Shown piece after piece: positions 37,813 to 54,023 of a stretch of DNA of 54,023 nucleotides. Under the pieces are notes generated by a model. The model saw nothing but the letters and a program-made list of their open reading frames with translations, was not told the origin of the DNA and searched no databases. How positions within the stretch are numbered: the first letter of the stretch is position 1; each line of letters starts with the position of its first letter. The position numbers and the translations under genes were made by a program. Origin of the DNA: Lentisphaerota bacterium (GTDB taxonomy: Bacteria; Verrucomicrobiota; Lentisphaeria; Victivallales; Victivallaceae); assembly GCA_015061495.1 (NCBI GenBank), contig SUWL01000010.1, positions 1-54,023 on the forward strand, written 5' to 3'.

Positions 37813-38388
37813 ATCCACCGGCCCCTGCCGCAGAATTTTTATACGCTCTCCAGTGGCATCAACCACCGTTGAACCGATCGCTTTACCAAAAATACCGCCG
37901 CCGTCGATCACCATATCCGCTTCTCCGTTAAGCTGGCGCAGCGCTTCATCGCAATCCAGAGCATCCGGCATCCCGGATGCATTCGCACTGGTTTGAACCA
38001 ATGCTGTCCCGACCAGCGCCAACAATTTTGACAGAAACGGCGTATCCGGAACCCGGAACCCCAGAGTTGAGCCGTCACGGCATGGCGCAATTATGGTCAA
38101 CGCTCCGGGGCAATATTCCGCGGCAAGCTGCTCCGGCAAACCGCTCAATATCACGCCATATTCCGTCAATTTACGCCAATCGTCGATGAACCATCCCAAC
38201 CTTTTTGATGCATTGCGATGCTTCAATTCAAAAATCCGTTCGATCGCCGCCCGATCATCCGCCCGGGCAATCAATCCGTAAACGGTTTCAGTAGGAACCA
38301 ATACCACTTTGCCGGGCTGTTGCAATACCGCAGCAGCTTCAGCGGCGATCTGATCAATTTTTTCCGTCGACAGCCGAACTCGTTTCAT
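37795..38388 (-). CDS. tsaC: L-threonylcarbamoyladenylate synthase (TsaC/Sua5/YrdC type)
   Basis: The enzyme makes threonylcarbamoyl-AMP from threonine, bicarbonate and ATP for t6A37 in tRNA. The 197-residue single YrdC domain has VVLVPTETVYGL near the start, an ELKHRNASKRL motif, CPGALTIIAP and VQTSANASGMPDA. It has no C-terminal Sua5 extension, so it is the short TsaC-like type. ATG 38388 follows GGAGG-AGAGG. The start overlaps the end of the upstream symporter gene by 35 bases, so it is translationally coupled to it. Confidence 0.92.
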   Translation of the reverse strand: MKRVRLSTEKIDQIAAEAAAVLQQPGKVVLVPTETVYGLIARADDRAAIERIFELKHRNASKRLGWFIDDWRKLTEYGVILSGLPEQLAAEYCPGALTIIAPCRDGSTLGFRVPDTPFLSKLLALVGTALVQTSANASGMPDALDCDEALRQLNGEADMVIDGGGIFGKAIGSTVVDATGERIKILRQGPVDLQKWL

Positions 38389-39913
38389 CCTCTTCGCCTC
38401 CGATCCTCTCTCCGACATAACAGCAGACAAATGCCAAAAGGGCGGATACAAAACCATATACCGCTCCGCAAGTTATCGCCCGGTCAAAACGAACACTGCT
38501 CAACAGATCAACAAAACTCATCCCGCTGCCGCTGCTGGCAATAAAGGTATATCCCAACCATACAACGGTTCCGGAAATCATCGTCGCCCAAACCGTATTC
38601 CTCGTCGCTTTGGGAACATAAAGAGCAATCATCACCGGCAGAAAAACGATCACCAGCTGGGAAATCCAACTGCCGATCATCAAATTGTAAATACTTTTCA
38701 CCCATATCGCAATGATCAATGCTACAACTGTAAGTACGATCACTGCGATCCGGGTACTGACCAGCAGCCACTTTTCCTGCAGTTTCGGGAAAAGCGGAGC
38801 CAACACATTATTGCAGAGCAGTGATGCTCCGGCAAGCAGAGAACTGTCTGCCGAACTCATGATCGCCGCGGTCAATGCCGCAATAAAAACCGTGAGAAAA
38901 AACGGACTGCTGTCCCCAAGTACCAATATCGCGATCCTCGGTAGCACCTGATTTTCCAATCCTGCCCCCATCGTCTCTTCAGTAATACCATAACGCGGAA
39001 GAATTATTCTGGCGGCGATCCCGATAGTTATCGGCAGAGCGGCTATAATTATGTAGAAAAACCCGGACAGCACGCTGCTGGCGACCGCCACATTGGAATT
39101 CTTGCTGGCAAGAGATCTTTGCACCAGATCCTGACCGACCATACACCCCAATCCCATAATGATCCAACTGCCGATGTAATAAACGTAGTCATTGAAATTC
39201 TGCGCATCAACCGGAAGCAGAGAATCCGCTTGCGTCAAACTGGCAAGCAGCTCATCAGAACCGCCTGCCAGGCTGACAGCACCGGGAAAAATCACGATCA
39301 AACCGATCACCATGATCCCGATCTGAACCACATCGGTCAGCGTAACTGCCCACATCCCGCCGGCACAGGTGTAAAACAACACCACCACAGCTCCGATAAG
39401 CGTACCGTAAACGATATCAAGTCCGGTAAGCAAGTTGATGATCGTTCCCAATCCCAACAGCTGCGAACCGAGCCAGCCGACGTAAACCGGGATCATCCAG
39501 AGCGAAGCATAAACTCCTGCTCCTTTGCCGAAACGCCGTTCTATGATGTCGGTAACTGTCATACACGATTTGCGGCGCAGCATACCTACCACAAACACCC
39601 CGGCGAGGATCAAACTCAAAGAAGCCCCGAATGGATCTGCCAGTACACCGCTGATACCTTTGGAATAAACCGTAGCCACCACCCCCAGAGAGGAACCGGC
39701 ACCGAACCATGTGGCAGTCAATGTCGCAGTTGACATCCACAGCGGCAGTCTTCTGCCGGCAACCAGAAAATCACTCATCCGGGAAACTTTGCGGCTGGCA
39801 AACCATCCGATGGCAAGCATCCCCAGCATATAGATGCTTATCCCGGCAATCAACATTCCCATGATTCCCGGCGGAAGCAATATTCCTGATGCGGTACCGA
39901 AAAGATCACTCAT
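38354..39913 (-). CDS. Sodium:solute symporter family transporter
   Basis: The 519-residue inner-membrane protein has about 13 hydrophobic helices and SSS-family features: SDFLVAGRRLPLWMSTATLT, ATWFGAGSSLGVV, LTDVVQIGIM, and ALTAAIMSSADSSLLAGASL. The family imports a solute (sugar, amino acid, choline or proline) with sodium. Nothing in sequence or neighbours fixes the substrate. It leads a two-gene operon with tsaC. The 145 bases upstream hold its promoter. Confidence 0.9.
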   Translation of the reverse strand: MSDLFGTASGILLPPGIMGMLIAGISIYMLGMLAIGWFASRKVSRMSDFLVAGRRLPLWMSTATLTATWFGAGSSLGVVATVYSKGISGVLADPFGASLSLILAGVFVVGMLRRKSCMTVTDIIERRFGKGAGVYASLWMIPVYVGWLGSQLLGLGTIINLLTGLDIVYGTLIGAVVVLFYTCAGGMWAVTLTDVVQIGIMVIGLIVIFPGAVSLAGGSDELLASLTQADSLLPVDAQNFNDYVYYIGSWIIMGLGCMVGQDLVQRSLASKNSNVAVASSVLSGFFYIIIAALPITIGIAARIILPRYGITEETMGAGLENQVLPRIAILVLGDSSPFFLTVFIAALTAAIMSSADSSLLAGASLLCNNVLAPLFPKLQEKWLLVSTRIAVIVLTVVALIIAIWVKSIYNLMIGSWISQLVIVFLPVMIALYVPKATRNTVWATMISGTVVWLGYTFIASSGSGMSFVDLLSSVRFDRAITCGAVYGFVSALLAFVCCYVGERIGGEEDETSSAVDGKN

Positions 39914-41426: not shown

Positions 41427-42314
41427 TCAAGAGATCTTTTTGCGAAACTCCCGCGGCGAACAACCGCTGATATTCCGGAACACCCGGTTGAATTGCGACA
41501 AACTGCCGAAGCCGCATAAAAATGCTACTTCTCCGACAGCCAGATCCGTTTCACGGAGCATCTCTTTTGCCTTATCCACCCGGAAACAACTTAAATAAAC
41601 ATTGAATCCGACTCCCAATGTCTGATGGAACATCCGGCTGAAATAATTGGCGGTAAAGAAAAATTTTTTCGCGACAGATTCCACGGTAAGCGGTTTGGAA
41701 TAGTTATCGTGGATATAATTACGGATCAACTGAATTTTGTCCGGCGTATTCACAGATTCCATATACATCAGATTATGATGGGTGGAAACGACCAAAGCCC
41801 CCATCAACTGCAGATAATCAATCAGACCTTCCATCTGGGTCGTGGTCAATTCAACCGTATGACTGCTGTGATTTATCAGCTGCTGCTCATCCAACCCGGT
41901 TTTTTCCGCAAGCTTCCGGAAAGTTTCCCTTCCCGGTCCCGGTTGATCTTTAATGTGAAACTGCCCGCTGGTTAAACAGCCGAGATAGACTCCATTCCCG
42001 GAAAACAGCGGAACAACGATATCCACCAATCCGGCGTAGCAGGTATAAATCTGCACCTGTTTGGACAAACGGGCATTGTCCGCAGCTGCTCCATCCTGAA
42101 GCCGGCAAAGTTCCCTGCCGTTCACCGAATGGCGCAGACAATCGCACAGCGGATTGAAATGTCTGCCTTTGGACAATTTCAACGAAACTCCGTCTGCACT
42201 GATAAAGTCGATAACGATTCCAAGCATTTTAAATACACAATCATGATATTCATGCAGCTGCTTTTCGTTACCGAGTTTGGCAAATACCCTGGTTACAATG
42301 TCATAATGATTCAT
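41427..42314 (-). CDS. PocR-domain AraC-family regulator
   Basis: The 295-residue protein has an N-terminal PocR ligand-sensing domain (about 25-170) whose conserved cysteines are visible (CDCLRHS, GRELC, YTCYAGLVDIVVPL), and a C-terminal AraC helix-turn-helix pair (about 195-295: LIRNYIHDNYSKPLTVESVA, ending ISGCSPREFRKKI). It should bind a small molecule and activate transcription. ATG 42314 is chosen; an ATG at 42353 lies at the predicted transcription start. It is divergent from the phosphotriesterase-like gene with overlapping -35 boxes, so it most likely controls that operon. Confidence 0.88.
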   Translation of the reverse strand: MNHYDIVTRVFAKLGNEKQLHEYHDCVFKMLGIVIDFISADGVSLKLSKGRHFNPLCDCLRHSVNGRELCRLQDGAAADNARLSKQVQIYTCYAGLVDIVVPLFSGNGVYLGCLTSGQFHIKDQPGPGRETFRKLAEKTGLDEQQLINHSSHTVELTTTQMEGLIDYLQLMGALVVSTHHNLMYMESVNTPDKIQLIRNYIHDNYSKPLTVESVAKKFFFTANYFSRMFHQTLGVGFNVYLSCFRVDKAKEMLRETDLAVGEVAFLCGFGSLSQFNRVFRNISGCSPREFRKKIS

Positions 42315-42353
42315 AAAAAATAGAACTTTCGTGCATTTTTGAAGATTTTGCAT

Positions 42354-42402
42354 AATATATCACCAAAAATGCGTAGATTCAAATTAAATTTTGTGGTATA
42401 AT
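42354..42402. promoter_or_regulatory. Divergent promoters between regulator and catabolic operon
   Basis: Minus strand (regulator): TTGAAT 42382-42377, 17 bp, TATATT 42359-42354. Plus strand (operon): TAGATT 42374-42379, 17 bp, TATAAT 42397-42402. The -35 boxes overlap. The plus-strand -35 is poor, as expected for a promoter needing an activator. Confidence 0.65.
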
Positions 42403-42456
42403 ATAGTGCGAACAGAATTTTTTCACATTGACTGCATATTTACGAAAGGCTGAACC

Positions 42457-43473
42457 ATGCAGAATAAAAAAATCATCACCGTAACCGGTGAAGTTGATAT
42501 CGGACAATGCCAAAAGGTATTGTCTCACGAACATCTTTTTATAGACATAACCAATCAGGCTGCCCCTGGAGCTTCAGAAAAAACCATCTCTCCGGCGGAC
42601 CGGCAGCAGCTGATGCGCGATCCATACTCGATCCGGGATAATCTGCTTTTAAACGATCCGGATGAAGTGGTAAGGGAGTGTCAGACCTTGCAGCTTTACG
42701 GCTGCGATACGATCGTCGATTGCAGCACCCCGCAAATCGGCAGAGATCCGGAAGTGCTGAAAAAAGTCTCCATGCAAACCGGTACAAAAATAGTCATGGG
42801 CTGCGGCTATTACACTGCCGATACCCATCCGGCTGAATTCACCGCAATATCTGCGGAAACAGCCGCCGCTGTGCTGATCGATGAAATAAAAAACGGTATC
42901 AACGGCATCCGCCCCGGAGTCATCGGCGAGATCGGTACCAGCAAAGAGATCATGCCGGATGAGAAAAAGGCACTCCGGGCTGCCGCAATTGCTCACCAAG
43001 ACTGCGGTCTGGCTGTTCAAGTCCACATTTTCCCCTGGTCAACGAACGGCCTTGAAGCGATGGATATTTTAATGGCAGGCGGAGTTGCCCCGGAAAAAAT
43101 CGTCATCTGCCACTCCGATGTGGAACCGAACTGGAAATACATTTCCCAACTGCTGAAATGCGGAGTCTATGTTGAATTGGACAACTTCGGCAAAGAATTC
43201 ACTCCTGCTCCGGACGGTTTTGCCGCCGGCAAATTCATCCCGGATATCGAACGGGCAGAACTGGCGGCAAAAATCATCGATGCCGGATTCGGTTCACAGC
43301 TGCTTATAACCAATGACATTTGTTTAAAGTGTATGCTCCCGTCATGCGGCGGCGAAGGTTATTCCCATATTTTCCGCAATGCAGTACCGATGATCGCTGA
43401 TTGCGGAATAGATGAAACGTACTTGAAAGAGGTGGTTTTACGCCAAAACCCGCTTACGGTGCTGGCGGTTTGA
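42457..43473 (+). CDS. Phosphotriesterase-family metallohydrolase
   Basis: This family (PTE/Php) has a (beta/alpha)8 barrel with two metals and hydrolyses phosphotriesters, lactones or esters. The 338-residue protein has metal ligands HEHLFID (His24, His26), VIGEIGTS (Glu in the bridging-ligand position, as in Php-type proteins), QVHIFPW (His), VICHSD (His) and LITNDIC, where Asn-Asp replaces the usual His-Asp. It has no signal peptide, so it is cytosolic. It opens the operon of large secreted proteins and may process an imported sugar lactone or ester; the substrate is not known. Confidence 0.82.
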   Translation: MQNKKIITVTGEVDIGQCQKVLSHEHLFIDITNQAAPGASEKTISPADRQQLMRDPYSIRDNLLLNDPDEVVRECQTLQLYGCDTIVDCSTPQIGRDPEVLKKVSMQTGTKIVMGCGYYTADTHPAEFTAISAETAAAVLIDEIKNGINGIRPGVIGEIGTSKEIMPDEKKALRAAAIAHQDCGLAVQVHIFPWSTNGLEAMDILMAGGVAPEKIVICHSDVEPNWKYISQLLKCGVYVELDNFGKEFTPAPDGFAAGKFIPDIERAELAAKIIDAGFGSQLLITNDICLKCMLPSCGGEGYSHIFRNAVPMIADCGIDETYLKEVVLRQNPLTVLAV

Positions 43474-43507
43474 AACAGATATCCGGACAACACAAAGGAG
43501 GTTTTAC

Positions 43508-45946
43508 ATGAAAAAAACAAGTATCCTGTTAGCAGTGCTGTCGGCAATATTCACCCTTGCTGCAGCAGAAAAAAATCTGGTCATAAACGGCACATTCGAC
43601 ATGAAAGGAAAGAGTTTTCCACCGTTTTGGATGTTCCGCTCCCACACTCCGAGTACCGTGGACTGTTTTTCTGACGGCGGTCCCAACGGATTGGGATTTC
43701 TGCGGGTCAACGGCAGAAAATCACTCATTTTGATCCAGCAGAACAACATTTCTCTTGTCAAGGATGAAAAATACCGCATCAGTGCCTATGTCCGCACCCG
43801 GAATCTCACCGGCAAACGCAACTGTGTTGCCATCCATCCGGGAAAAGCGCACTCCGGTCTGGAATTTCCGGAAAACCAGCCGGAATGGAAATATATTGAG
43901 AAGATCCACGAAGGCTACGCCACCGGAGATGCATTCTACTTCTCAATCGAAGTAGACTCTCCCGACGGTCAGCTGGATATCGCCGATTTGAAAATCGTCC
44001 CCCTGGGAGCAAAAGGCATCGCCGGATCAAAACGGCAGATCGAAAGTGTCTTTCAGCAGCTCGTTCCGCTCAACCTTTTGCGTTACATAAATGTAAACCA
44101 GCCGGAACTGGAATTTTTCTGGGTCGGCGAACTCCCCGGCAAACCGGAGGAAATGCGCTGCCGATTCACTCTTAACGGCAAAAAACTTACGGTCCCGTTT
44201 TCCACTAAAAAATTTACCGTCCCCCTGAAATCCCTCGCTCCGGCTGCCGGTGAAGCGGAACTGAAACTTGATATCCTTGCCAAATCCGGCAAAACTCTTT
44301 TCTCCCAAACCTATCCTGTGCGTTTCATAAAGCATCCGGATTCCTCCACCCCGCCGAAACGGCTCAACAATCTGGTCAGCATCGTTTATGAAGGCAAACT
44401 TGCCGCCGGAGAAAAACGCCGCTTTACCAATCCCCGCAACAACTGGGTGCTGATCCGCTACACCGGCAAAAATAAACCGGCATTGAAATTAGACGGCAAA
44501 GTGGTTCTGGAAAAAGATTATCCCCATGGCACGACTGTCCGCTGTCTGGACATGGGTAACTATACTTTGGAAAACAGCAGCAAGGAAGATTGCGAAATTT
44601 CCATCCGTCTGGTTCCGGATATGCACATGTTCCCCCTCTGGCACACCCGGGTGCCCGGCAACGGCTCATACGATTGGACATTTGCCAAAAAATATATGCT
44701 CCCGGCATTCACCACCATCAACGTCGGCGGGATCGGAAAAGAAGAAAAACCGGAAGTGGAACGCTTCGGGCTGAAACTGCTGGACAACGCCAGCGCCATC
44801 AAATTCGGCACTGCAGAAGAGCTGGTAAAAAGATTTGAAAATAACGCTTCTCTCAAATCCACGCATTTTGACGGCATCACCATGGACGAAGTCGAATACT
44901 GGAGCTGCAAAGTGCCCGCTCCTTATGCCAAAGGCCTGCGGATGTTCAAAAATCCCGGAAACAAAGAGATCCGCACCTGGGTCATCGGACCGCCGAGTCC
45001 CTCTTATGCGGATTTCATTTCCAGTGTCGCCAACGTTTCCGGCGGTCACGGCAGACTGCTTTATGAAGTCTATAACCGCTCTCACTATACTGAAGATGAT
45101 GCGGCAAAATATATCCGCCAGACTGCCCAGCACGCGGCTCTTTACAAAGATATTTCACCCAAACTTTTCAATAATATTTCGGTCATCCTCGGCAACTTCT
45201 GCCTTGCACCGATGATTTCACTGAACAGTATTCCCAGCGTGGACTTCCGCTACTATCTGGATATGCAGATGAACCTGATCGCCAATGATCCCGCACTGGA
45301 CGGCATCGGCGGTGTCGGTTACTGGGGAACTCAAAGCTGTGATGAGGAAACGTTGCGCTGGTGTTTCGCGCTGCTCAAACACTATGCGGTCGAAGGAAAT
45401 ACCGAAATGCTGTCAAAGAAATACGGTTATACATTCAACCTCGACTGGATAAAAAATCCTGATTTTGAAGAGAAACTTGACCACTGGCAGGTTTCCGGAA
45501 AAGTCGAAGCGGGTTACCTTAAAAACTTCAGCCAAAAGTATGAAAAACGTTACGATCCCGGCTACGGTCAGGGCGATACCTTTGCCATATTCACCAAAGA
45601 AGGTTCCACCCCGGCAGAACTCCGGCAGAAAATTACCGGACTTACCCCCGGCAAACTCTATTCGGTCTACTATATGAGTGCCGATTATGACGATGTCCTC
45701 AAGGAAAAACACAACCCCAAACGGATTCCTCTGCAGTTGACCATCCCCGGGGCAGTCATCACCCGGAGAAGTTACTATATCGACAACCGTCCGGCAACCA
45801 GTATCAAAGTAAGTGTCAACTGCTGCAAATATGTTTTCCGTGCAAAAAACAGCGAAGCTGAACTGGTTTTCAGCAACCGCAAAGCTCCTTCCGGCAGCCG
45901 GCAGGTACTCAATTACATCACGGTAAGACCGTATTTTGAACCCTAA
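43508..45946 (+). CDS. Large secreted glycan-active-like protein, paralogue A
   Basis: The 812-residue protein has a signal peptide (about 1-20), an N-terminal beta-sandwich (about 20-170: NLVINGTFDMKGKSFPPFWM, typical of carbohydrate-binding CBM4/9-like folds), a middle beta-rich part (about 190-390), a central domain (about 390-640) and a second beta-sandwich at the C-terminus (about 650-812, KNPDFEEKLDHWQVSGKVEA). The central domain holds candidate acids Asp460-Glu461 (GITMDEVEYW), a later Glu in LLYEVYNR, and GVGYWGTQSCDEETLRWC. I recognise no named glycoside hydrolase family. It is paralogous along its length to the protein at 50222-52714. A strong AAAGGAGG ribosome site precedes it. Confidence 0.75.
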   Translation: MKKTSILLAVLSAIFTLAAAEKNLVINGTFDMKGKSFPPFWMFRSHTPSTVDCFSDGGPNGLGFLRVNGRKSLILIQQNNISLVKDEKYRISAYVRTRNLTGKRNCVAIHPGKAHSGLEFPENQPEWKYIEKIHEGYATGDAFYFSIEVDSPDGQLDIADLKIVPLGAKGIAGSKRQIESVFQQLVPLNLLRYINVNQPELEFFWVGELPGKPEEMRCRFTLNGKKLTVPFSTKKFTVPLKSLAPAAGEAELKLDILAKSGKTLFSQTYPVRFIKHPDSSTPPKRLNNLVSIVYEGKLAAGEKRRFTNPRNNWVLIRYTGKNKPALKLDGKVVLEKDYPHGTTVRCLDMGNYTLENSSKEDCEISIRLVPDMHMFPLWHTRVPGNGSYDWTFAKKYMLPAFTTINVGGIGKEEKPEVERFGLKLLDNASAIKFGTAEELVKRFENNASLKSTHFDGITMDEVEYWSCKVPAPYAKGLRMFKNPGNKEIRTWVIGPPSPSYADFISSVANVSGGHGRLLYEVYNRSHYTEDDAAKYIRQTAQHAALYKDISPKLFNNISVILGNFCLAPMISLNSIPSVDFRYYLDMQMNLIANDPALDGIGGVGYWGTQSCDEETLRWCFALLKHYAVEGNTEMLSKKYGYTFNLDWIKNPDFEEKLDHWQVSGKVEAGYLKNFSQKYEKRYDPGYGQGDTFAIFTKEGSTPAELRQKITGLTPGKLYSVYYMSADYDDVLKEKHNPKRIPLQLTIPGAVITRRSYYIDNRPATSIKVSVNCCKYVFRAKNSEAELVFSNRKAPSGSRQVLNYITVRPYFEP

Positions 45947-45971
45947 CCCAAACATAAGGAGGTCGTAAATC

Positions 45972-46742
45972 ATGAAAAACAACAATGCTTCCGAACACAC
46001 ATTTTCTTCGGGGAGTATCCCGAAGAAGCCCATGGGCTTCACCCTTATCGAACTGTTGGTGGTCATTGCGATCATCGCCATTCTGGCAGCGATTTTGCTT
46101 CCAGCCCTCAACTCTGCCCGGGAACGCGGTCATGCGGCAAGCTGCGTGAATAATTTGAAACAGATGGGAACTTATTTCATACAGTATGCCGATGCCAACG
46201 AAGATTATTATATCCCGGCAAACTATAAGTTAATGGGACATGCCGACAATATTCTCTGGGTACAAACGTTTGAAAAATTTTTCGGTATCGCTGATTATCA
46301 GAAAACGCCGTATATATTCTGTCCAAAACGTCTGACCATCAATCAGGTCACCAATGCTCCCGGCAATAAATATTACCCGGGATACGGAGTTTTGCTTGCC
46401 GGACCGACCAGAAGATATGTCGCAGAAGCTAAAGGTACAACCCATCACCCGCAGAAAACAACCGCGATATACAAACCGAGTGCGACGATTCTGCTGTCCG
46501 ATGTGACCTATTATGCTACTGACGGTTCTTACAAAGGTACCGGCTATTATGTTGTTGACAATACTACAGCCGGGAATGGCAAAGGAACCACCAACAAAAC
46601 CGGCAATCTGACCGGAATACACAACAATGCCGACAATATGGCATTTTGCGACGGGCACGTTGAAGCGGTTTCCAAAGATATAATTGACGCATGGCTTGAC
46701 TCCACTACGCCCGAACGCGGCTATGGAGAATTGAAGAGGTAA
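45972..46742 (+). CDS. Prepilin-like protein with H-x9-DG tail (DUF1559-like)
   Basis: The 256-residue protein has a short charged leader (1-21), then [17 protein letters not shown] (from Gly22), the type IV prepilin cleavage site and hydrophobic helix with Glu at +5. The rest is a globular domain ending [17 protein letters not shown], the H-x9-DG motif typical of the large families of such proteins in Planctomycetes and Lentisphaerota. It should be processed by a prepilin peptidase and stay anchored to the inner membrane. Its place between two catabolic proteins suggests it serves the locus, for example as a substrate-binding or secretion accessory protein; that role is inference. Confidence 0.85.
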
Positions 46743-46751
46743 TTTAACAAA

Positions 46752-48773
46752 ATGTTCGATAAAAAACAACAGGAAACCTGGATCTGGACAGAGCTGCTCG
46801 CCTTTGACCGGGAACAGCCGGATTGCGGGGTAAAAGCCTATCTCGACCGGCTGGGATTCATCCCAGCCGGTATCTCCGCACTGCTTTCGGCGGTTGACTT
46901 CGTGCTGCTGCACAAAGGCATGGAGGAGGAATATGAGCTTTTCCCCGATGTCTGTTCACGCTTCGGACACGAAAAAAACGAAGAGCGTGCCCGGCAGAAG
47001 TGGACGAACTACGATCTCCGCCGCCTGATCGCCGAACTCCACAAACACAATATAAAAATTTTCGTATCAGTATTCATCCGGATCATGCATGACCGGTACC
47101 ACAGGGAATTTGTTTCCGAACATCCGGAAATCCGCATGGGGGACAAAATTTACGGTTTGGACAATGCCGTATCTTTCCTTGCCAGAATGAATGACGGAAC
47201 CCTCTTTGAGGATATTTTCATCCCCAAACTGGTCGATGTCATGCGCGATTACGGCTTTGACGGCTGGCACGGCGCCGATGGACAGGGGCCGGGATGGAAT
47301 CTGACCCACTCGGATTCATCCGACAGTTTTGTTTTCCAATTCGCCGAATATCTCGGCAAAGACAAACTTCCGGCAAAATATCTGGAAAAAGCCGACGATT
47401 CCGAGGCAATGATGGCAGAAAGATTGGATTATATCTGGCAGAATTTCCGGAACGAATGGGCAAAATTCACTTCGGACTTTTGGGTACGATTCTGGAAAAA
47501 AGCCGCCGATGCCGCGCACCGCATCAATTGTGAAGTGATGATCAATTCGCCGTTTGCAAAGTCCATTTTTGAGTCCATTTTCTACTTCGGGCTGGATTAC
47601 CGGAAGCTCAACGGTTTGAAAATCGACTATCTGATCACCGAATCGGTCGTCACCAGTTGTGCCCTTAATTACGGCAACTACGAACGGGTCTTCGACTTCA
47701 GTGCCATGATCGCCGAAATGCGTGCCATCCTGCCGGAAATGAAGGTCATCGTCATGCCCGGCGTAAAAGATGTGGTGGAAAGTTACGATTCGCTCCGCCA
47801 TGCCCCCTGCCGGTTGGAACGGGATATTTTTGCCACGGTCAGCCAGAGCATCTTTGCCAATGGCAGAGCCAACCGTGCCGCCGATGGACATCTGATTTGC
47901 CTGGGTGACGGTATCACCGCTCAAGAGTGGAAATATCTGGAAGAGATCCGGGAAATGTCTTTCTCATTTGATATTTCCCGCGCGGGAGATATGGTTTGGA
48001 TGGTTGCTCCGGAAATCTTTGATCCGCTGATCAAAGAGTACGAAAAGTACGGTACCATGCCTCCATATCAGTTCCCTGCCCGGTTGACAGAAACGCAGAA
48101 TATCGATATATCCTGCGTAGTTCTGCCGGAAAACATCGACCGCCTGGAACAGCCGCTCTTTGTTCCGATGTTCAACCTTTACCCCCGGGATATCAAAGAC
48201 AAGATCCTTGCCCGTCCGGGATTGACAGTCCTCATGGGACGCTGGGAAGATGCCGGTCTGCCGGCAAATACTCCGGCGATCAAGTGCAAACTTGCCGCAG
48301 ATTATACGCTGTTTTGCACTATCCTCAATGGTAAACCGGTAAATGAACAGATGGTTGCAGATGTTTCCGGCCGACCGGCGTTTGACTGGAAACCGACTTA
48401 TCGCAAGTTCATTTCCACCCGGATACCGCGTACCGAAATTCCCGATGAGTTCTTCGATGCCGCCGGTGCCGCCATCCGCAGCAATCTGCCGGATTCCGCA
48501 TTGCTCAATCCTGAAGACCAAGTCACCCAAATGAATTTCCATGACCCGGCAGGCAATCGTCAGATCGCCCTGCTCTCGCACCGGGACAATTACTGTGTCG
48601 CCCGTTATCAGTTGGACGATGAGGGAAAAGTACTGGAAAAACTCAGTCCATTCCCCTATTCACCGCTTCACATTGCCAATGGTCTTCTGGCGCTGGATGA
48701 GCATGACTCACCCTTGCATTTACCACCGAGAGGTATTATATTAATAAAAGTAACAACAGGAGCAAAAAAATGA
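46752..48773 (+). CDS. Cytosolic TIM-barrel-like protein, possible new hydrolase family
   Basis: The 673-residue product has no signal peptide. The first ~430 residues alternate helix and strand (KHNIKIFVSVFIRIMHDRY; MRDYGFDGWHGADGQGPGWN at about 165-184; NCEVMINSP; KIDYLITESVVTSC; EMKVIVMPG), as in a TIM barrel with acidic residues at strand ends, suggesting a glycoside-hydrolase-like active site (Asp in GADG, Glu in ITES). The C-terminal ~230 residues look like a beta-sandwich domain. I cannot place it in a named family. It sits between the prepilin gene and a secreted beta-sandwich gene, which starts inside its stop codon (ATGA). Confidence 0.65.
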   Translation: MFDKKQQETWIWTELLAFDREQPDCGVKAYLDRLGFIPAGISALLSAVDFVLLHKGMEEEYELFPDVCSRFGHEKNEERARQKWTNYDLRRLIAELHKHNIKIFVSVFIRIMHDRYHREFVSEHPEIRMGDKIYGLDNAVSFLARMNDGTLFEDIFIPKLVDVMRDYGFDGWHGADGQGPGWNLTHSDSSDSFVFQFAEYLGKDKLPAKYLEKADDSEAMMAERLDYIWQNFRNEWAKFTSDFWVRFWKKAADAAHRINCEVMINSPFAKSIFESIFYFGLDYRKLNGLKIDYLITESVVTSCALNYGNYERVFDFSAMIAEMRAILPEMKVIVMPGVKDVVESYDSLRHAPCRLERDIFATVSQSIFANGRANRAADGHLICLGDGITAQEWKYLEEIREMSFSFDISRAGDMVWMVAPEIFDPLIKEYEKYGTMPPYQFPARLTETQNIDISCVVLPENIDRLEQPLFVPMFNLYPRDIKDKILARPGLTVLMGRWEDAGLPANTPAIKCKLAADYTLFCTILNGKPVNEQMVADVSGRPAFDWKPTYRKFISTRIPRTEIPDEFFDAAGAAIRSNLPDSALLNPEDQVTQMNFHDPAGNRQIALLSHRDNYCVARYQLDDEGKVLEKLSPFPYSPLHIANGLLALDEHDSPLHLPPRGIILIKVTTGAKK

Positions 48774-49561
48774 AAAAAACGATTCTTTTTCCGCTTATGG
48801 CGGCGGTACTGGCAACGTTGACAGCCGGAGCTGAAACATATACCTACAATACTCCGGGCAACTGGCGCCGCTCAAAAGATTTCATCCCCGTTGCAGACGG
48901 AGTGCTGCAAATCAAAGCTTCCGCTCACGAAACTGCCCGCAACACCGTCAATGTCGATCCGGAAAAAAGTTATAAGGTATCCATGAAAATCCGCCTTCAA
49001 GGTACTGTTCCAAGTCAGGTATACCTGCTTGCCATGCCGATTTCCGAAGAGGGACGCACCATCCAGATGTACCATGTCACTCCGGTCACCGGCAGCGACG
49101 GTGTTCTGGCTGCTGACTGCACTAAAAATGATACATTCATCATCGTCAAACCGGACAGCCGCCGTCACTGGTCGCCCATCCGCAGCTGGCGGGTTCACTT
49201 CAATTCTGCCAAAGATGCGTCCGATCTGCCGAATTATGACGTTTCCAACAATCTGGACAAAATCGAAGACACCGCTGACGGAAATATTAAAGTTTCTTTC
49301 CGCGGCAAAGCATTGGTCGACGCCAAAGCCGGTACTCCCGTGCGCCTGACTCAAGGCGGCGCATATATGTACCTCGCCGGAATCAAACCGACCGCCCAGT
49401 GGACAGAGGTTTCCGGAACGGTCAAAGGTATAAATAACAACGGTTGGAGCAACAATGTTTTTCCGGTTGGGACCGCCAGTTTCGCCCCTGCCCTGCTCGC
49501 CAACTGGGGAACCAAAGGCGCAGTTATTGAAATCAAAGACTTCAAAGTAGAAGAAATCTGA
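48770..49561 (+). CDS. Secreted beta-sandwich protein, carbohydrate-binding suspected
   Basis: The 263-residue protein has a signal peptide (about 1-21) and then beta-rich sequence (ETYTYNTPGNWRRSKDFIPV, SYKVSMKIRLQGTVPSQVYL, ending ALLANWGTKGAVIEIKDFKV) like a galactose-binding-fold domain, as seen next to glycoside hydrolases. No catalytic site is seen. Its start codon overlaps the stop of the gene before it, and the HAD gene follows by 5 bases. It may bind the glycan at the cell surface or in the periplasm. Confidence 0.6.
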   Translation: MKKTILFPLMAAVLATLTAGAETYTYNTPGNWRRSKDFIPVADGVLQIKASAHETARNTVNVDPEKSYKVSMKIRLQGTVPSQVYLLAMPISEEGRTIQMYHVTPVTGSDGVLAADCTKNDTFIIVKPDSRRHWSPIRSWRVHFNSAKDASDLPNYDVSNNLDKIEDTADGNIKVSFRGKALVDAKAGTPVRLTQGGAYMYLAGIKPTAQWTEVSGTVKGINNNGWSNNVFPVGTASFAPALLANWGTKGAVIEIKDFKVEEI

Positions 49562-49566
49562 AAAAA

Positions 49567-50217
49567 ATGAACAATCTGATTATTTTTGATCTTGACGGCA
49601 CATTGATCAACTCCGTAGGCGGTATTGCCCAATCTGTAAACCGCACCAGGCAGGATTTCGGATTTGCTCCGCTGCCGATCGGGGTCATCACCTCGTTTAC
49701 CGGAGACGGAGCAAAAAAACTGCTGGAACGTTCCTGTGCCGATGTTACGCTGCCGGTTCCTTTGGAAGAGGCAGTTCAGGTCATGATCAAAAATTATGCA
49801 GCCGATCCGGTCTATGACACCTTCCTTTACGATGGCGTAAAGGAAGGATTGATCAGACTCAAAGATTCCGGATGGATTCTTGCGGTGGTCAGCAACAAAC
49901 CGCAACTGGTCGCAGAAAAGATCCTTGCCGGACTGGACGTCGCCCAACTTTTTCACGAAAATATCGGCGGCGGAGCCGGATTCCCGCTCAAACCGGCTCC
50001 GGATGCCATTTTTCACCTGATGGATAAATATCATATCTCTCCGGAAAAAACCTTCTTTGCCGGAGATAACCACACCGATATGAATGCCGCAAAAAATGCC
50101 GGTATAAAAAGCATTTTCTGCCGCTACGGATTCGGTGAAAAACTTGATACCGATTCAACAGTTGAGGTTGACAACTTTACAGAATTGACCGATTACCTTA
50201 TTGATTACAAAGGATAA
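49567..50217 (+). CDS. HAD-family phosphatase (phosphoglycolate phosphatase-like)
   Basis: The 216-residue protein has HAD motif I DLDGTLINS, motif II VVSNKPQ and motif IV FFAGDNHTDMNAAKNAG, with a helical cap (about 15-85). It resembles Gph/phosphoglycolate phosphatase by size and motifs, but HAD enzymes vary in substrate; here it may dephosphorylate a sugar phosphate produced by the locus. It is 4 bases before the second large secreted protein gene and overlaps no other gene. Assignment to a particular phosphate ester is not possible. Confidence 0.85.
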   Translation: MNNLIIFDLDGTLINSVGGIAQSVNRTRQDFGFAPLPIGVITSFTGDGAKKLLERSCADVTLPVPLEEAVQVMIKNYAADPVYDTFLYDGVKEGLIRLKDSGWILAVVSNKPQLVAEKILAGLDVAQLFHENIGGGAGFPLKPAPDAIFHLMDKYHISPEKTFFAGDNHTDMNAAKNAGIKSIFCRYGFGEKLDTDSTVEVDNFTELTDYLIDYKG

Positions 50218-50221
50218 CTCC

Positions 50222-52714
50222 ATGAAAAAAATATTTCTTTCTTTTGCACTTGCCGCCACGACAGTTTTGCCGCTTGCCGCGCGGGAACTGGTATTCAATC
50301 CGGAACTCCGAGCAGACAACCGCTCTTTCCCGTCCGGCTGGATGCCTCTGACCCGCTCCGGAGCACAGGTACTCTACTTCCGGGAAGGCGGTCCGGATAA
50401 CAAACCGTTTTTCCGTCTGACCTCCCGCAAAGCCCCTTCCCTGCTCCATCAGACCAATTTAAAACTGGTGAAAGGGGAAAAATATATCCTCGGAGCATGG
50501 TTCCGCACCAAAAATGTCGTCAACCGCATGTCCGGCATCCGGGTCGCATCCAGCTCAAACCACATGCAGTACAACGGCGATCATCTGCTGGTCGGTCTGC
50601 CGGAAAATATGAACGAATGGCGTTATTTTGAACGGGTCATCACTCTGCCCGCAGAAGAAAAGCCGCTTTATCCCTATTACGACATCGAATTGATCCTTGA
50701 TGCCGGCGGCGGTCAGTTGGATATTTCCGGTGTCACCCTCAAACCGGTTTCCGAAATCGCCAAACGGGATTCCAAAACTCTGATGGAAAATGTCGCCCCC
50801 TGTCTGGTTCCGCTCGGCATTCTCTATTATATCCCGCAGAATAAGCCGGCGATGGATTTCCGCTGGGTCGGTGAATTCAAAGGCGGCGAACCGCAAAACT
50901 GCGAATGTGAATTTTATTTCAGCTATGACAAGAAAACTGTCACCGCCCCCTTCTCCTTTGAGCGGTTCAACGTGGACTTCGGCAAACTTACCGCTAAAAA
51001 AGTGCAGGACATGCGCATTCGGATCGTGGACAGAAAAACCCGCAAGATCTGGTTCGAAGAAACCTACTCCGTGCGTTCCATGCCGATCCCGGAACTTGCT
51101 GCCAATGCCAGACAGCTCAACAATATCGTCACAGAAGTATTCAATGCCGGTGTCAAAGACGGAGAGACGGTGAAATTTGCCAACAACCGCTATGGTTTTG
51201 TGCTTTTCCACTTTGATTCTAATGGCAGGAAACCCTTTTCGGTATCGCTCAACGGCAAAAAAATATTCGATGAAAAAGCTCCGCAAAGCGAAATCATCCG
51301 CGACCTCGATCCCGGTGTTTTTGAAGTTAAAGTCACCGGAAACAGCGGTAATCTGCAGATCCGGCTCATTCCCGATGTCATGACCTTTGCCTTGATGACT
51401 CCGCGCATGCCCGGAAACGGTATCTACAACTGGGAGTTCGCAAAAAAATATCTTTTCCCCGGATTAACTACTATCAATGTCGCCGGATTAACCCCGCAGC
51501 AGTTTGCAGAACTCAACCAGCTGGGCAGAAAATATCTGGAAAACTACGGCATCCAGAATTGGTCAAATCCCAACATCGCTGAAGATAACCTGCAGCGCAT
51601 GCAAAAAAGCAAAGCATTCCGCAATCCCTACAGCCACGGCAGTACGCTGGATGAATCCGAATGTTTCTATCCGGTCATGCTCGATCCCTACGCTTATGCA
51701 CTCAAAAAATTCACCAACCCGTATGACCGTATGATGGTAACTTATCAGACCGGTCCGGTGACCGATGCGCTGATGAATTCGATTTCTGCCGCCGCCAATG
51801 CCACCCGCGGCAAAGCATGGCTTGCTTTTGAACTTTATCCCCGTGGTGAAGAAAATATGGATGATGTCAAAGCAATGTTGAGCAATGCCGCCCAGGAGTG
51901 GAATATGTTCCGTGATTGCGCACCGGGATTATTTTCAAAAGCCGGTGTCTGCTGGGGTAACTTCTCCTGCCCGCCGAATATTTCCCTTGCCCACTATCCG
52001 GACATCGATTACAAAGTCATCATCGATATGAAAATGCATGCAGTCGCCAACGATCCGGCATTCAACGGAGTCGGCAAGGTCGGCTTCTGGGGGACTTATG
52101 CCGCAGACGAAGAGATCGCCCGCTGGAGCTTCCGGGTCATGCGGCACTATGCGTTTGAAGGAAAAAAGAATCTGCTCTCCCGGGAGTACGGATTTTCCCT
52201 CAAACCAGGTTTCGTAAAAAATGCCGCGTTTACTGACGGCTTGAATGGTTGGCAAGTCTCCGGAAATATCGTAAAGGAAGTCTATGCCGGATACGGTAAA
52301 AACTCCATCAAGCTGCACGGCTCCAAAGGTGCCGGTGACGATTTTGCCCTCTTTACCAAAGAAAAAGGTACTCATGCCGAATTGAGTCAGGTTGCAAAAG
52401 GATTCGAAAAAGGCAAAAAATATCTCATGTACTTCTACGTCGGAGATTTCGATGATGTGATCTGCAACCGCCAGAGAGTCGGCGCTCTGCCGCTGAAAGT
52501 AACTCTCGATGGTGCAAAAATCCTGAATAAAACCCACTATCAGGGCAGTGCGACCAAGGGTAATCACGCCTATGTAAATATCCACAAGATCATTTTCACC
52601 GCCGAAAATGATGAAATCAAACTGACCTTTGACAACAAGGAAGCAAAGGACGGCAGTATGCTGATGCTCAATTACATCTGCATCCGTCCATATTATGAAC
52701 CAGAGGAGCTTTGA
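50222..52714 (+). CDS. Large secreted glycan-active-like protein, paralogue B
   Basis: The 830-residue product has a signal peptide (about 1-20) and the same layout as the protein at 43508-45946: N-terminal beta-sandwich (NPELRADNRSFPSGWMPLTR), middle beta region, central domain and C-terminal beta-sandwich. In the central domain Asp477-Glu478 (GSTLDESECF), AFELYPRGEE and GKVGFWGTYAADEEIARW match the acidic positions of paralogue A. The stretch from GNFSCPPNISLAHYPDIDYK on is the best conserved. ATG 50222 has AAAGGA upstream; an upstream TTG in frame is unlikely. The duplication suggests two related substrates, or a two-subunit enzyme. Confidence 0.75.
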   Translation: MKKIFLSFALAATTVLPLAARELVFNPELRADNRSFPSGWMPLTRSGAQVLYFREGGPDNKPFFRLTSRKAPSLLHQTNLKLVKGEKYILGAWFRTKNVVNRMSGIRVASSSNHMQYNGDHLLVGLPENMNEWRYFERVITLPAEEKPLYPYYDIELILDAGGGQLDISGVTLKPVSEIAKRDSKTLMENVAPCLVPLGILYYIPQNKPAMDFRWVGEFKGGEPQNCECEFYFSYDKKTVTAPFSFERFNVDFGKLTAKKVQDMRIRIVDRKTRKIWFEETYSVRSMPIPELAANARQLNNIVTEVFNAGVKDGETVKFANNRYGFVLFHFDSNGRKPFSVSLNGKKIFDEKAPQSEIIRDLDPGVFEVKVTGNSGNLQIRLIPDVMTFALMTPRMPGNGIYNWEFAKKYLFPGLTTINVAGLTPQQFAELNQLGRKYLENYGIQNWSNPNIAEDNLQRMQKSKAFRNPYSHGSTLDESECFYPVMLDPYAYALKKFTNPYDRMMVTYQTGPVTDALMNSISAAANATRGKAWLAFELYPRGEENMDDVKAMLSNAAQEWNMFRDCAPGLFSKAGVCWGNFSCPPNISLAHYPDIDYKVIIDMKMHAVANDPAFNGVGKVGFWGTYAADEEIARWSFRVMRHYAFEGKKNLLSREYGFSLKPGFVKNAAFTDGLNGWQVSGNIVKEVYAGYGKNSIKLHGSKGAGDDFALFTKEKGTHAELSQVAKGFEKGKKYLMYFYVGDFDDVICNRQRVGALPLKVTLDGAKILNKTHYQGSATKGNHAYVNIHKIIFTAENDEIKLTFDNKEAKDGSMLMLNYICIRPYYEPEEL

Positions 52715-52719
52715 ATTTT

Positions 52720-53460
52720 ATGAAACTGCGTGTGATGAGTTATAATACTCAATCCGGATTCGCCAAAGGCAGAAAAGTTCACAATTATCTGCCGCAGGCG
52801 GAACATATCGCCTGTTACAACCCGGATGTGGTCGCCTTGCAAGAGGTCGCCATCAACCATCCGTTCGGAGAAAAAATCAATTATCCGGAATTGGTCGCAA
52901 AACATCTCGGAATGAATTACTGTTTCGGAAAGGCCTTGGATTTCTGTGACATGTTTCCGGAATGCGACGGTACTTACGGCGTAGCGGTTCTTTCCAAATA
53001 TCCGGTAGAACCGGTTGAAAAAATCATGCTCCCGGTTCCCGAAGGCATTGAGCCGCGGGTGGCACTGGTCACCCGGATCGATGCTCCGACTCCGTTTTAC
53101 ATGGTCAGTACCCACCTGTCCTATCAGGGTGAATTCCCCAATGATACCAACAGCCGTGTCGATCAGTTGGAAACGGTCTTTGCCTATCTCAAAAAACACC
53201 AGCTCTCTCCGGTCGTACTCGCCGGAGACCTCAACTCCCAGCCGCAGGACAACTCCATTGATGCTCTCCGCCGGGAATTTGATGTTTTTAACGACGGCAG
53301 AAGTGATTTGCCTACTGCTGAATCATCCAAATACGGCTGGGTACAGATCGACTATATTTCCGCTGCTCCGAAAGCACAATGGAAATGCGACCGCTTTTTT
53401 GTCGGCAGCGACTGTTCCGTCAGCGATCACTATGCGGTGATTGCGGATTTGGAAATATAA
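52720..53460 (+). CDS. Endonuclease/exonuclease/phosphatase (EEP) family enzyme
   Basis: The 246-residue protein has the EEP-family motifs MSYNTQSG, VVALQEVA (metal Glu), STHLSYQGEF, LAGDLNSQP (catalytic Asp and Asn) and SDHYAVIADL (catalytic His). These metal-dependent phosphoesterases act on nucleic acids, inositol phosphates or sphingomyelin; the absence of a signal peptide points to a cytosolic substrate. ATG 52720 has GAGGAG upstream, overlapping the end of the paralogue B gene. In this operon a phosphorylated sugar or a phospholipid/glycolipid headgroup is a plausible substrate, but that is inference. Confidence 0.85.
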   Translation: MKLRVMSYNTQSGFAKGRKVHNYLPQAEHIACYNPDVVALQEVAINHPFGEKINYPELVAKHLGMNYCFGKALDFCDMFPECDGTYGVAVLSKYPVEPVEKIMLPVPEGIEPRVALVTRIDAPTPFYMVSTHLSYQGEFPNDTNSRVDQLETVFAYLKKHQLSPVVLAGDLNSQPQDNSIDALRREFDVFNDGRSDLPTAESSKYGWVQIDYISAAPKAQWKCDRFFVGSDCSVSDHYAVIADLEI

Positions 53461-53479
53461 AATTGTCCCATTTTTTGTG

Positions 53480-53590
53480 CTGCACTCATACCGGCGGCGG
53501 TTCTGACCGTTATCGCAGGTTGCCGGATCATAATATAGGTGATATATTCTTGTATTTGTGATTATCGCAGCCAACGACTCTTGAGTGCAG
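53480..53590. other. Possible structured element (nested inverted repeats)
   Basis: A 9-bp perfect helix (CTGCACTCA 53480-53488 with TGAGTGCAG 53582-53590) encloses two modules: CCGGC/GCCGG (53491-53495/53522-53526) around CGGT-TCTG-ACCG (53498-53509), and ATCA/TGAT (53527-53530/53559-53562) around AATATA-GGTGA-TATATT (53532-53548). TTATCGCAG occurs twice, at 53510-53518 and 53562-53570. It lies between the EEP gene and the GH20-like promoter. It may be a structured RNA or a DNA site. A further hairpin, CAAAATTC (53597-53604) with GAATTTTG (53617-53624), follows. The remaining bases to 53654 show nothing I can identify. Confidence 0.35.
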
Positions 53591-53654
53591 ATTTTACAAA
53601 ATTCGGAACATTACCGGAATTTTGCAGAAAATGTAATTTTTTATATTGTTTTAC

Positions 53655-53700
53655 TTGCAAACCGATGCGGTACACTGTATATTACCACATCGGTTTGCAA
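53655..53700 (+). promoter_or_regulatory. Promoter inside a 13-bp inverted repeat, GH20-like gene
   Basis: -35 TTGCAA (53655-53660), a 17-bp spacer and -10 TATATT (53678-53683). A perfect 13-bp inverted repeat, TTGCAAACCGATG (53655-53667) and CATCGGTTTGCAA (53688-53700), brackets it: the left arm covers the -35, the right arm the transcription start. Arm starts are 33 bp apart, about three helical turns, so a dimer or looped regulator could bind both and repress. Confidence 0.8.
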
Positions 53701-53725
53701 ATTTATGGTCTTTTCAAGGGAAAAC

Positions 53726-54023
53726 ATGTCCGAACACACCGCATCATTTTTGATTCCGGCTCCGGCACAGGCGGAATATCTCAATGGGAAACTGCCGGTA
53801 AGCAGCATCACCACCTTTGCCGTGGCAGATGAACTTGCCGCGGTTGCCACGGAATTGAAAAAGGTATTTTCTGTCCTGAGAATGACGGTTTCCCGGACCG
53901 CCGGGAATGCCGCTGTAAACTTCCGATACGCTCCGATGACCGAAGGTGCATGGCAGATGACCATTGACGGTACCGGCATCACTGCAGTTGCCGGTGATCT
54001 TACCGGTGCATCCTACGCCGCCA
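53726..54023 (+). CDS. Probable GH20 beta-N-acetylhexosaminidase, N-terminus (partial, runs off right edge)
   Basis: Ninety-nine residues are present from ATG 53726 (AAGGG upstream) to the window end, in one open frame. The sequence (PAPAQAEYLNGKLPVSSITT; AVADELAAVATELKKVFSVL; GAWQMTIDGTGITAVAGDLT then GASYAA) has the pattern of the GH20 N-terminal alpha+beta domain, in which a strand with 'x-I-T-V-x-A-x-D-x-x-G-x-x-Y' leads into the catalytic barrel. GH20 enzymes release N-acetylhexosamine from chitin or glycoconjugates. No signal peptide is seen. The catalytic Asp-Glu pair lies beyond the window, so the family remains tentative. Confidence 0.55.
   Translation, partial: MSEHTASFLIPAPAQAEYLNGKLPVSSITTFAVADELAAVATELKKVFSVLRMTVSRTAGNAAVNFRYAPMTEGAWQMTIDGTGITAVAGDLTGASYAA

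Follow-up and report, generated by a model that had tools for sequence, protein, structure and literature searches.

Known Sugar Operons and the Lentisphaerota Locus

Polysaccharide utilisation loci and the sugar operons served by ATP-binding cassette (ABC) importers combine a sensor-regulator, secreted proteins that bind or cleave the substrate and cytosolic glycosidases under apparent common control. The same elements recur in ten genes at positions 41,427 to 54,023 of contig SUWL01000010.1 (Lentisphaerota bacterium, assembly GCA_015061495.1), the whole 54,023 nucleotides of which are referred to here as the window. The locus differs from those systems in that none of its ten genes matches a SusC/SusD pair in Pfam, none encodes a transporter, and its glycosidase-like barrels have no Pfam model. 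Other described operons, those with ASRT/ASRAH genes, are also close: de Souza, Iyer and Aravind (2009, PMC2739507) proposed ASRT as a sugar-binding domain, encoded in operons with sugar isomerases. The isomerase gene adjoins ASRT there, as in many loci of B673, one of the proteins encoded by the locus. These operons differ in their partners, since B673, an M24 creatinase-like gene and a PTE-family hydrolase gene accompany ASRT in the loci described below, and neither "creatinase" nor "phosphotriesterase" occurs in the main text of that paper.

The locus is a genuine functional unit whose genes are conserved together, and it most likely represents an inducible operon for glycan utilisation, formed from two modules. 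The broader statement, that the region serves the inducible use of a carbohydrate (glycan or glycoconjugate) and was formed by joining these modules, is held with moderate confidence. This kind of system is already known; for its two large enzyme-like families (S812/S837 and B673), no model of the barrels was found in Pfam or NCBIfam and no tested function was found, and among the titles listed from the openly accessible literature none, PMC2739507 aside, describes the enzymes or the B673-linked gene set. Two large glycosidase-like families, both strongly conserved and both lacking Pfam models, are thereby brought together in a single operon that seems to answer to one sugar source.

An earlier note on this DNA, made from the letters alone, had described a PocR/AraC regulator divergent from a tight run of eight genes, and the open reading frame list together with a Pfam scan placed all ten genes as follows (signal peptides were assigned by visual inspection alone):

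41427–42353, minus strand: PocR-domain AraC-type regulator (Pfam PocR 83.1 bits, HTH_18 75 bits; divergent position also in the related genome G020)
42457–43473, plus strand: PTE-family metallohydrolase with no evident signal peptide (Pfam 176.5 bits, invariant metal-site residues)
43508–45946, plus strand: S812, secreted putative glycosidase with a CBM4-like domain and a GH18-like barrel (CBM_4_9 over cut-off, conserved acids)
45972–46742, plus strand: DUF1559-like prepilin/pseudopilin (N_methyl over cut-off)
46752–48773, plus strand: B673, putative glycoside hydrolase of three domains (barrel, alpha/beta, beta) with no evident signal peptide (AlphaFold2 model, fold matches)
48770–49561, plus strand: S263, small secreted protein, suspected to bind carbohydrate (weak CBM_4_9_1 match, homologues near S-family genes)
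49567–50217, plus strand: HAD phosphatase, phosphoglycolate-phosphatase-like (HAD_2 112.3 bits; part of a HAD-EEP-GH20 module)
50222–52714, plus strand: S837, secreted putative glycosidase, paralogue of S812 (AlphaFold2 model)
52720–53460, plus strand: phosphoesterase of the endonuclease/exonuclease/phosphatase (EEP) fold with no evident signal peptide (Pfam 60.4 bits)
53655–53700, no strand assigned: inverted repeat with 18-nt arms, a possible regulatory site upstream of the GH20 gene
53726–54023, plus strand: GH20 beta-N-acetylhexosaminidase-like gene whose 3' end lies beyond the contig (GH20 domain 2)

The eight-gene run therefore reads PTE, S812, prepilin, B673, S263, HAD, S837 and EEP, with the GH20 gene after it. 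Taking ATG starts from the sequence (50222 for S837, 52720 for EEP and 53726 for GH20), the gaps within the run range from -4 to 34 bp, whereas EEP and GH20 are separated by 265 bp; the Pfam and NCBIfam scans of S837 and GH20 were read from 50225 and 53729, one codon past the ATG. The regulator, in which Pfam matched both a PocR sensory domain and an AraC helix-turn-helix, faces the run across 103 bp and is likely the switch of the operon.

Conservation of the Operon and Its Two Modules

Conserved order in related genomes, which the earlier note had proposed looking for, was found complete in two of 99 other relatives and in part in ADurb.Bin242; the tallies over 100 genomes given here include G000, the source of the window, and many of these genomes are incomplete. 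Both complete cases belong to the same genus. In G020 (locus L050) the order runs from PocR through PTE, S812, prepilin, B673, S263, HAD, S837, EEP and GH20 to a 221-aa protein whose N-terminus is signal-like. In G003 (L049), whose contig stops shortly beyond these genes in either direction, it holds from PTE to where GH20 begins. The proteins of the window are 56–81% identical to their counterparts in these two congeners. Chance adjacency was rejected on account of this conserved gene order.

In ADurb.Bin242 (L071), an S812-like gene (42%) and an S837-like gene (53%) lie near a prepilin gene, B673 (52%) and S263 (33%), and no PTE, HAD, EEP or GH20 gene was found in the stretch read. Since a FastTree tree joins each paralogue to its respective L071 counterpart (support 0.76 for S812, 0.97 for S837), the duplication that gave rise to them is older than the split from L071, and both copies have been kept.

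The genes missing from that stretch occur elsewhere as a set. G014 and G007 carry HAD, EEP and GH20 together, with no PTE, S-family or B673 gene in the stretches read, and in both genomes an EEP copy about 60% identical to that of the window lies between HAD and GH20; in G014, the GH20 gene is followed by a 222-aa protein that by eye resembles the 221-aa protein of G020. EEP matches were found in 25 genomes, and the five of 100 reaching at least 60% identity were used in co-occurrence tests; a PDB search with EEP gave no match up to E 0.01. In the window, HAD lies between S263 and S837, and EEP-GH20 follow S837. Because of this interleaving, and because HAD-EEP-GH20 also stand alone, the operon reads as a joining of HAD-EEP-GH20 with PTE-S-B673.

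It might alternatively be considered that HAD-EEP-GH20 are an unrelated inserted module, and that only the PTE, S-family and B673 genes form a pathway. This would agree with their standing alone in G014 and G007 and with their absence from the ADurb.Bin242 stretch. However, the window and both congeners keep HAD and EEP interleaved with the other genes, at gaps of 0–5 bp in the window (ATG starts), and this alternative seems to us rather doubtful.

The Secreted Proteins S812 and S837

As had been supposed, S812 and S837 are paralogous, with about 35% identity. CBM_4_9 (PF02018) matches S812 at 29.6 bits, over its cut-off of 25.9, and S837 at 20.9, below it. The AlphaFold2 model of S837 (pLDDT 89.3), whose numbering is followed here and which has no initiator Met, contains a CBM-like region at residues 19–175 (fold match CBM16/CBM4) and a GH18-like barrel at residues 347–646. 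Asp476, Glu477, Glu536, Glu630, Arg633, His641 and Tyr642 are identical in all 36 aligned members of the family, members shorter than 560 residues or with E above 1e-25 having been left out. By strand order in the model, Asp476-Glu477 lie on barrel strand 4 and Glu536 on strand 6, and their counterparts in S812 are Asp460, Glu461 and Glu520.

Regarding described enzymes, Pfam has no model for the S837 barrel, NCBIfam gave no match to S812, S837 or B673 up to E 0.1, and neither phmmer nor profile searches against the PDB gave a credible match to S812. GH18 enzymes carry the strand-4 motif DxxDxDxE. The S family has GxxxDE instead, in 36 of 36 members, and S837 is 9% identical to GH18 endo-beta-N-acetylglucosaminidases (ENGases), from which it also differs in its additional beta domains on either side. 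Foldseek rows obtained with the whole S837 model had TM-scores of 0.11–0.31 and were not used; some fold rows are insecticidal toxins (Vip3), covering the N-terminal CBM-like part and the following beta domains (model residues 15–178 and 17–383).

S812 and S837 are regarded as putative glycosidases, the model of S837 being glycosidase-like. It could be argued that they are glycan-binding or surface-display proteins without catalysis, so that only the cytosolic enzymes would act. The identity of the seven residues in all 36 members and the placing of Asp476-Glu477 and Glu536 on strands 4 and 6 of the barrel speak against this, and we think it unlikely.

Two further genomes from the same class carry tandem triplets of S-family genes, on G239:C97 (L204) and G313:C332. 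One S copy in each of them contains an in-frame TAA, and a copy in G160 contains two TAG.

The Predicted Cytosolic Protein B673

The cytosolic barrel-like protein of the earlier note is B673, which has a modelled barrel and no evident signal peptide. Its AlphaFold2 model (pLDDT 88.5) contains a barrel resembling those of PgaB, Cwp19 and GH42. For B673 as for S837, structure modelling returned a glycosidase-like fold with invariant acidic residues: Asp176, Asp340, Glu343 and His350 are identical in all 73 rows of an alignment restricted to members of 560–800 residues. B673 matches no Pfam family up to E=1, and phmmer and profile sequence searches of the PDB found no credible match.

Cwp19 has been described as a peptidoglycan lytic transglycosylase, and PgaB cleaves deacetylated poly-N-acetylglucosamine (PNAG) (PMC6811678 and PMC5933820). 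B673 is 11–13% identical to the PgaB glycoside hydrolase domain (GH153) and to Cwp19 (GHL10), and differs from both in its two further domains, in its lack of an evident signal peptide and in the invariant Asp340 and Glu343 after strand 7. With respect to GH42 beta-galactosidases, B673 has no Pfam GH42 match, and strand order puts Asp176 in the strand-4 place in 73 of 73 rows, where the GH42 acid/base would be Glu; 16 aligned members match nine Pfam families, and GH42 is not among them. GH85 was rejected, as its match in one of these 16 members (E=0.0098) is too weak for use. GH156, considered for its resemblance to Cwp19, was not among the 50 fold rows listed and gave no PDB sequence match, neither of which settles its case. 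From its model, B673 is regarded as a putative glycoside hydrolase.

The fold resemblance of the barrel opens another explanation, in which the operon recycles or remodels the polymers of its own envelope (peptidoglycan, exopolysaccharide) and not an outside glycan. Cwp19 and PgaB, the closest folds, both act on cell polymers (PMC6811678 and PMC5933820), and the HAD protein has a sub-cut-off match to one MupP model (61.6 of 359 bits). The patchy distribution of B673, found in 12 of 100 relatives, an inducer-type PocR regulator, the ABC importers of Paenibacillus loci and the duplication of secreted proteins with CBMs agree better with foreign substrates, and envelope recycling is quite improbable.

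The PTE-Family Hydrolase and the Neighbours of B673

The PTE protein matches PF02126 at 176.5 bits, against a cut-off of 22.4. His24, His26, Glu158, His190, His219 and Asp287 are invariant in 15 aligned sequences, and we take them to be the binuclear metal ligands (HxH, bridging Lys/Glu, His, His, Asp). Three named equivalog models of NCBIfam matched far below cut-off. The enzyme is likely of the lactonase, amidase or esterase type. The Pfam family name could suggest organophosphate detoxification. However, the protein scores 69.8 of 500 bits with the organophosphate-hydrolase model, far under its cut-off; it has Glu158 where phosphotriesterase carries a carbamylated Lys; and its neighbours are sugar genes. 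Such a function is hardly credible here.

Window-type PTE genes occur in seven of 100 genomes, the copies outside this genome being 57–64% identical to that of the window. Five copies lie outside a window-type operon, in G006, G019, G032 (two) and G098. An M24 gene is found within 30 bp of both G032 copies and of the G098 copy; one small ASRT gene separates PTE from M24 in G019, and an M24 fragment and an ASRT gene precede PTE in G006.

The same partners are found near B673 in some loci of other phyla. A scan of named genomes retained the best 80 of 98 B673 relatives, several of which share one genome; two of them, L069 and L070, were taken as the G003 and G020 contigs. Clustering recovered B673 in 72 of the 80 loci, the other eight (cut, short or miscalled) being kept in the denominator. 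For L158–L160 and part of L191 (G+C-rich stretches of the analysis as a whole), coordinates came from search matches and tblastn, not from open reading frame calls. The records bear the titles Lentisphaerae/Victivallales, Paenibacillus, Cohnella, Armatimonadetes, Planctomycetota, Verrucomicrobia, Omnitrophota, Abditibacteriota and others. Within up to 10 kb on each side of B673, the 80 loci contained M24 creatinase-like genes in 25 cases, fucose/arabinose-isomerase-like genes in 17, PTE in 14, ASRT in 14, PIG-L deacetylases in 11 and DUF2334/polysaccharide-deacetylase-like genes in 10. At least one of these six genes is present in 31 loci and at least two in 25, the latter from Lentisphaerota, Firmicutes, Omnitrophota, Abditibacteriota and one contig titled Uhrbacteria. 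Among the 18 Paenibacillus/Cohnella loci, 12 have PTE near B673, all of them also with M24, and they account for 12 of the 14 PTE-B673 loci; ABC importer genes (SBP_bac_1, BPD_transp_1) stand beside 16 of the 18. A PocR-like regulator cluster was present in 6 of the 80.

In the set of 100 relatives, M24 and B673 (13 and 12 carriers) co-occur in nine genomes (Fisher p=7e-8), and B673 and PTE (12 and 7 carriers) in four (p=0.004); kinship is ignored in all these tests. The genome of the window has its M24 gene on another contig (C55) and a second B673 copy on C42.

It is tentatively proposed, at somewhat less than even confidence, that S812/S837 and B673 found two undescribed glycoside hydrolase families, and that B673, with PTE, M24, ASRT and the isomerase, makes up a pathway that breaks down, in the cytosol, an unusual sugar of an N-acylated or lactone-forming kind and is common to Lentisphaerota, Paenibacillus and several other phyla. 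If these proteins are enzymes, they would represent new carbohydrate-active families from gut Lentisphaerota, and the multi-phylum catabolic gene set would be testable in named, isolated Paenibacillus strains, among them P. baekrokdamisoli KCTC 33723 (L108), which has a B673-PTE-M24-isomerase operon.

Several single loci are worth recording. L080 (LBWG01000008.1, titled Candidatus Uhrbacteria and possibly mis-binned) has the B673-M24-isomerase-PIG-L set with prepilin genes and a PocR-like regulator, as in Lentisphaerota. In the Paenibacillus loci L105 and L107, flanking secreted proteins share a PTVSGEFPIGIFVEP-like start, one of them with a weak GH42 match, and in L106 (Paenibacillus) a 1665-aa neighbour has SLH, CBM_4_9 and DUF4838 domains. 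An hhalign comparison of A1 with A2 gave a probability of 0.2, no support for kinship, and PDB searches with A1 and A2 gave no credible match.

Proposed Pathway and Substrate

In the proposed pathway, module A would comprise PocR, PTE, S812, prepilin, B673, S263 and S837. The PocR domain would sense an inducer, and the AraC part would activate the divergent operon. Outside the cytoplasm, the secreted S812, S837 and S263 may bind the glycan, which S812 and S837 would also cleave; the imported oligosaccharide would then be cleaved by B673 in the cytosol, and the PTE-like enzyme would hydrolyse a lactone, ester or amide of the released sugar. Module B would comprise HAD, EEP and GH20, joined in G020 and G014 by a small protein that is secreted. 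Its cytosolic GH20 enzyme would remove N-acetylhexosamine, and the two phosphoesterases would remove phosphate.

The substrate is probably an N-acetylhexosamine-containing glycan, as suggested by GH20, by GH123-like genes beside B673 (L064 and L193), by a GH20C gene beside the S-gene triplet of L204, by the PIG-L deacetylases and by the PgaB- and ENGase-like folds. The earlier suggestion of such a glycan is thus plausible, though short of proof, and that of a phosphoglycan is a guess: the phosphatases may point to a phosphorylated glycan, and they might just as well act on sugar phosphates that arise within the cell. The idea of one pathway for one substrate is not supported in the strict sense, since the co-conserved unit consists of two joined modules and has its M24 partner on another contig of this genome.

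A number of points weigh against the interpretation as a glycan-utilisation operon. The full operon is found in only 3 of 100 genomes, among seven with a window-type PTE, and in 49 of the 80 B673 loci the DNA covered contains not one of the six associated genes. S-family genes mostly occur without B673, and the association of the two is weak (17 and 12 carriers of 100, five genomes shared, Fisher p=0.03). M24 is not among the ten genes, nor is a transporter, nor are ASRT and the isomerase, for which the rest of the genome was not searched. The nearest named glycoside hydrolase families fail motif or profile tests, the residue patterns of S837 and B673 do not match those families exactly, and fold similarity is no proof of activity in the modelled S837 and B673. 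The HAD and EEP phosphatases could serve another purpose. Finally, the inverted repeat before GH20 has no match at up to three mismatches in the four congeners searched.

Other Features of the Locus

This repeat (53655–53700) has 18-nt arms, 94% complementary, and a 10-nt loop; it lies 25 bp before the GH20 ATG and occurs once in the genome. A different inverted repeat precedes GH20 in G020, none was found before GH20 in G003, and in two genomes GH20 begins only 3 bp after EEP. The operator of its own once ascribed to GH20 is therefore not a conserved feature, given this spacing and the lack of matches in congeners. In the intergenic region between PocR and PTE, similarity was seen only between the window and G020; G003 did not align.

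The GH20 gene is cut off by the end of the contig (G000:C29) at 54023, and GH20 domain 2 scores 35.8 bits over the remaining 98 residues. Its catalytic domain is visible in relatives only, the complete G020 copy (L050) matching PF00728 at 275 bits and containing an HVGGDE stretch. The CBM_4_9_1 match of S263 (E=0.051) is below cut-off, and in L051, L057, L058 and L071 homologues of S263 share a stretch with S-family genes. The prepilin matches N_methyl (PF07963) at 25.3 bits, against a cut-off of 21.2, with SBP_bac_10 just under cut-off. Because PF07963 has 71 matches in this genome, the prepilin is uninformative for this locus, and its supposed role as a specific anchor lacks support.

Beyond PocR in G020 (L050:185–3349), there are two genes that are not beside PocR in the window, one GH42-like with a match just under cut-off, the other encoding a GxDLY/GDSL esterase. 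In the window, a sodium:solute symporter gene (SSF 150 bits) lies at 38354–39913, 1.5 kb beyond the PocR gene.

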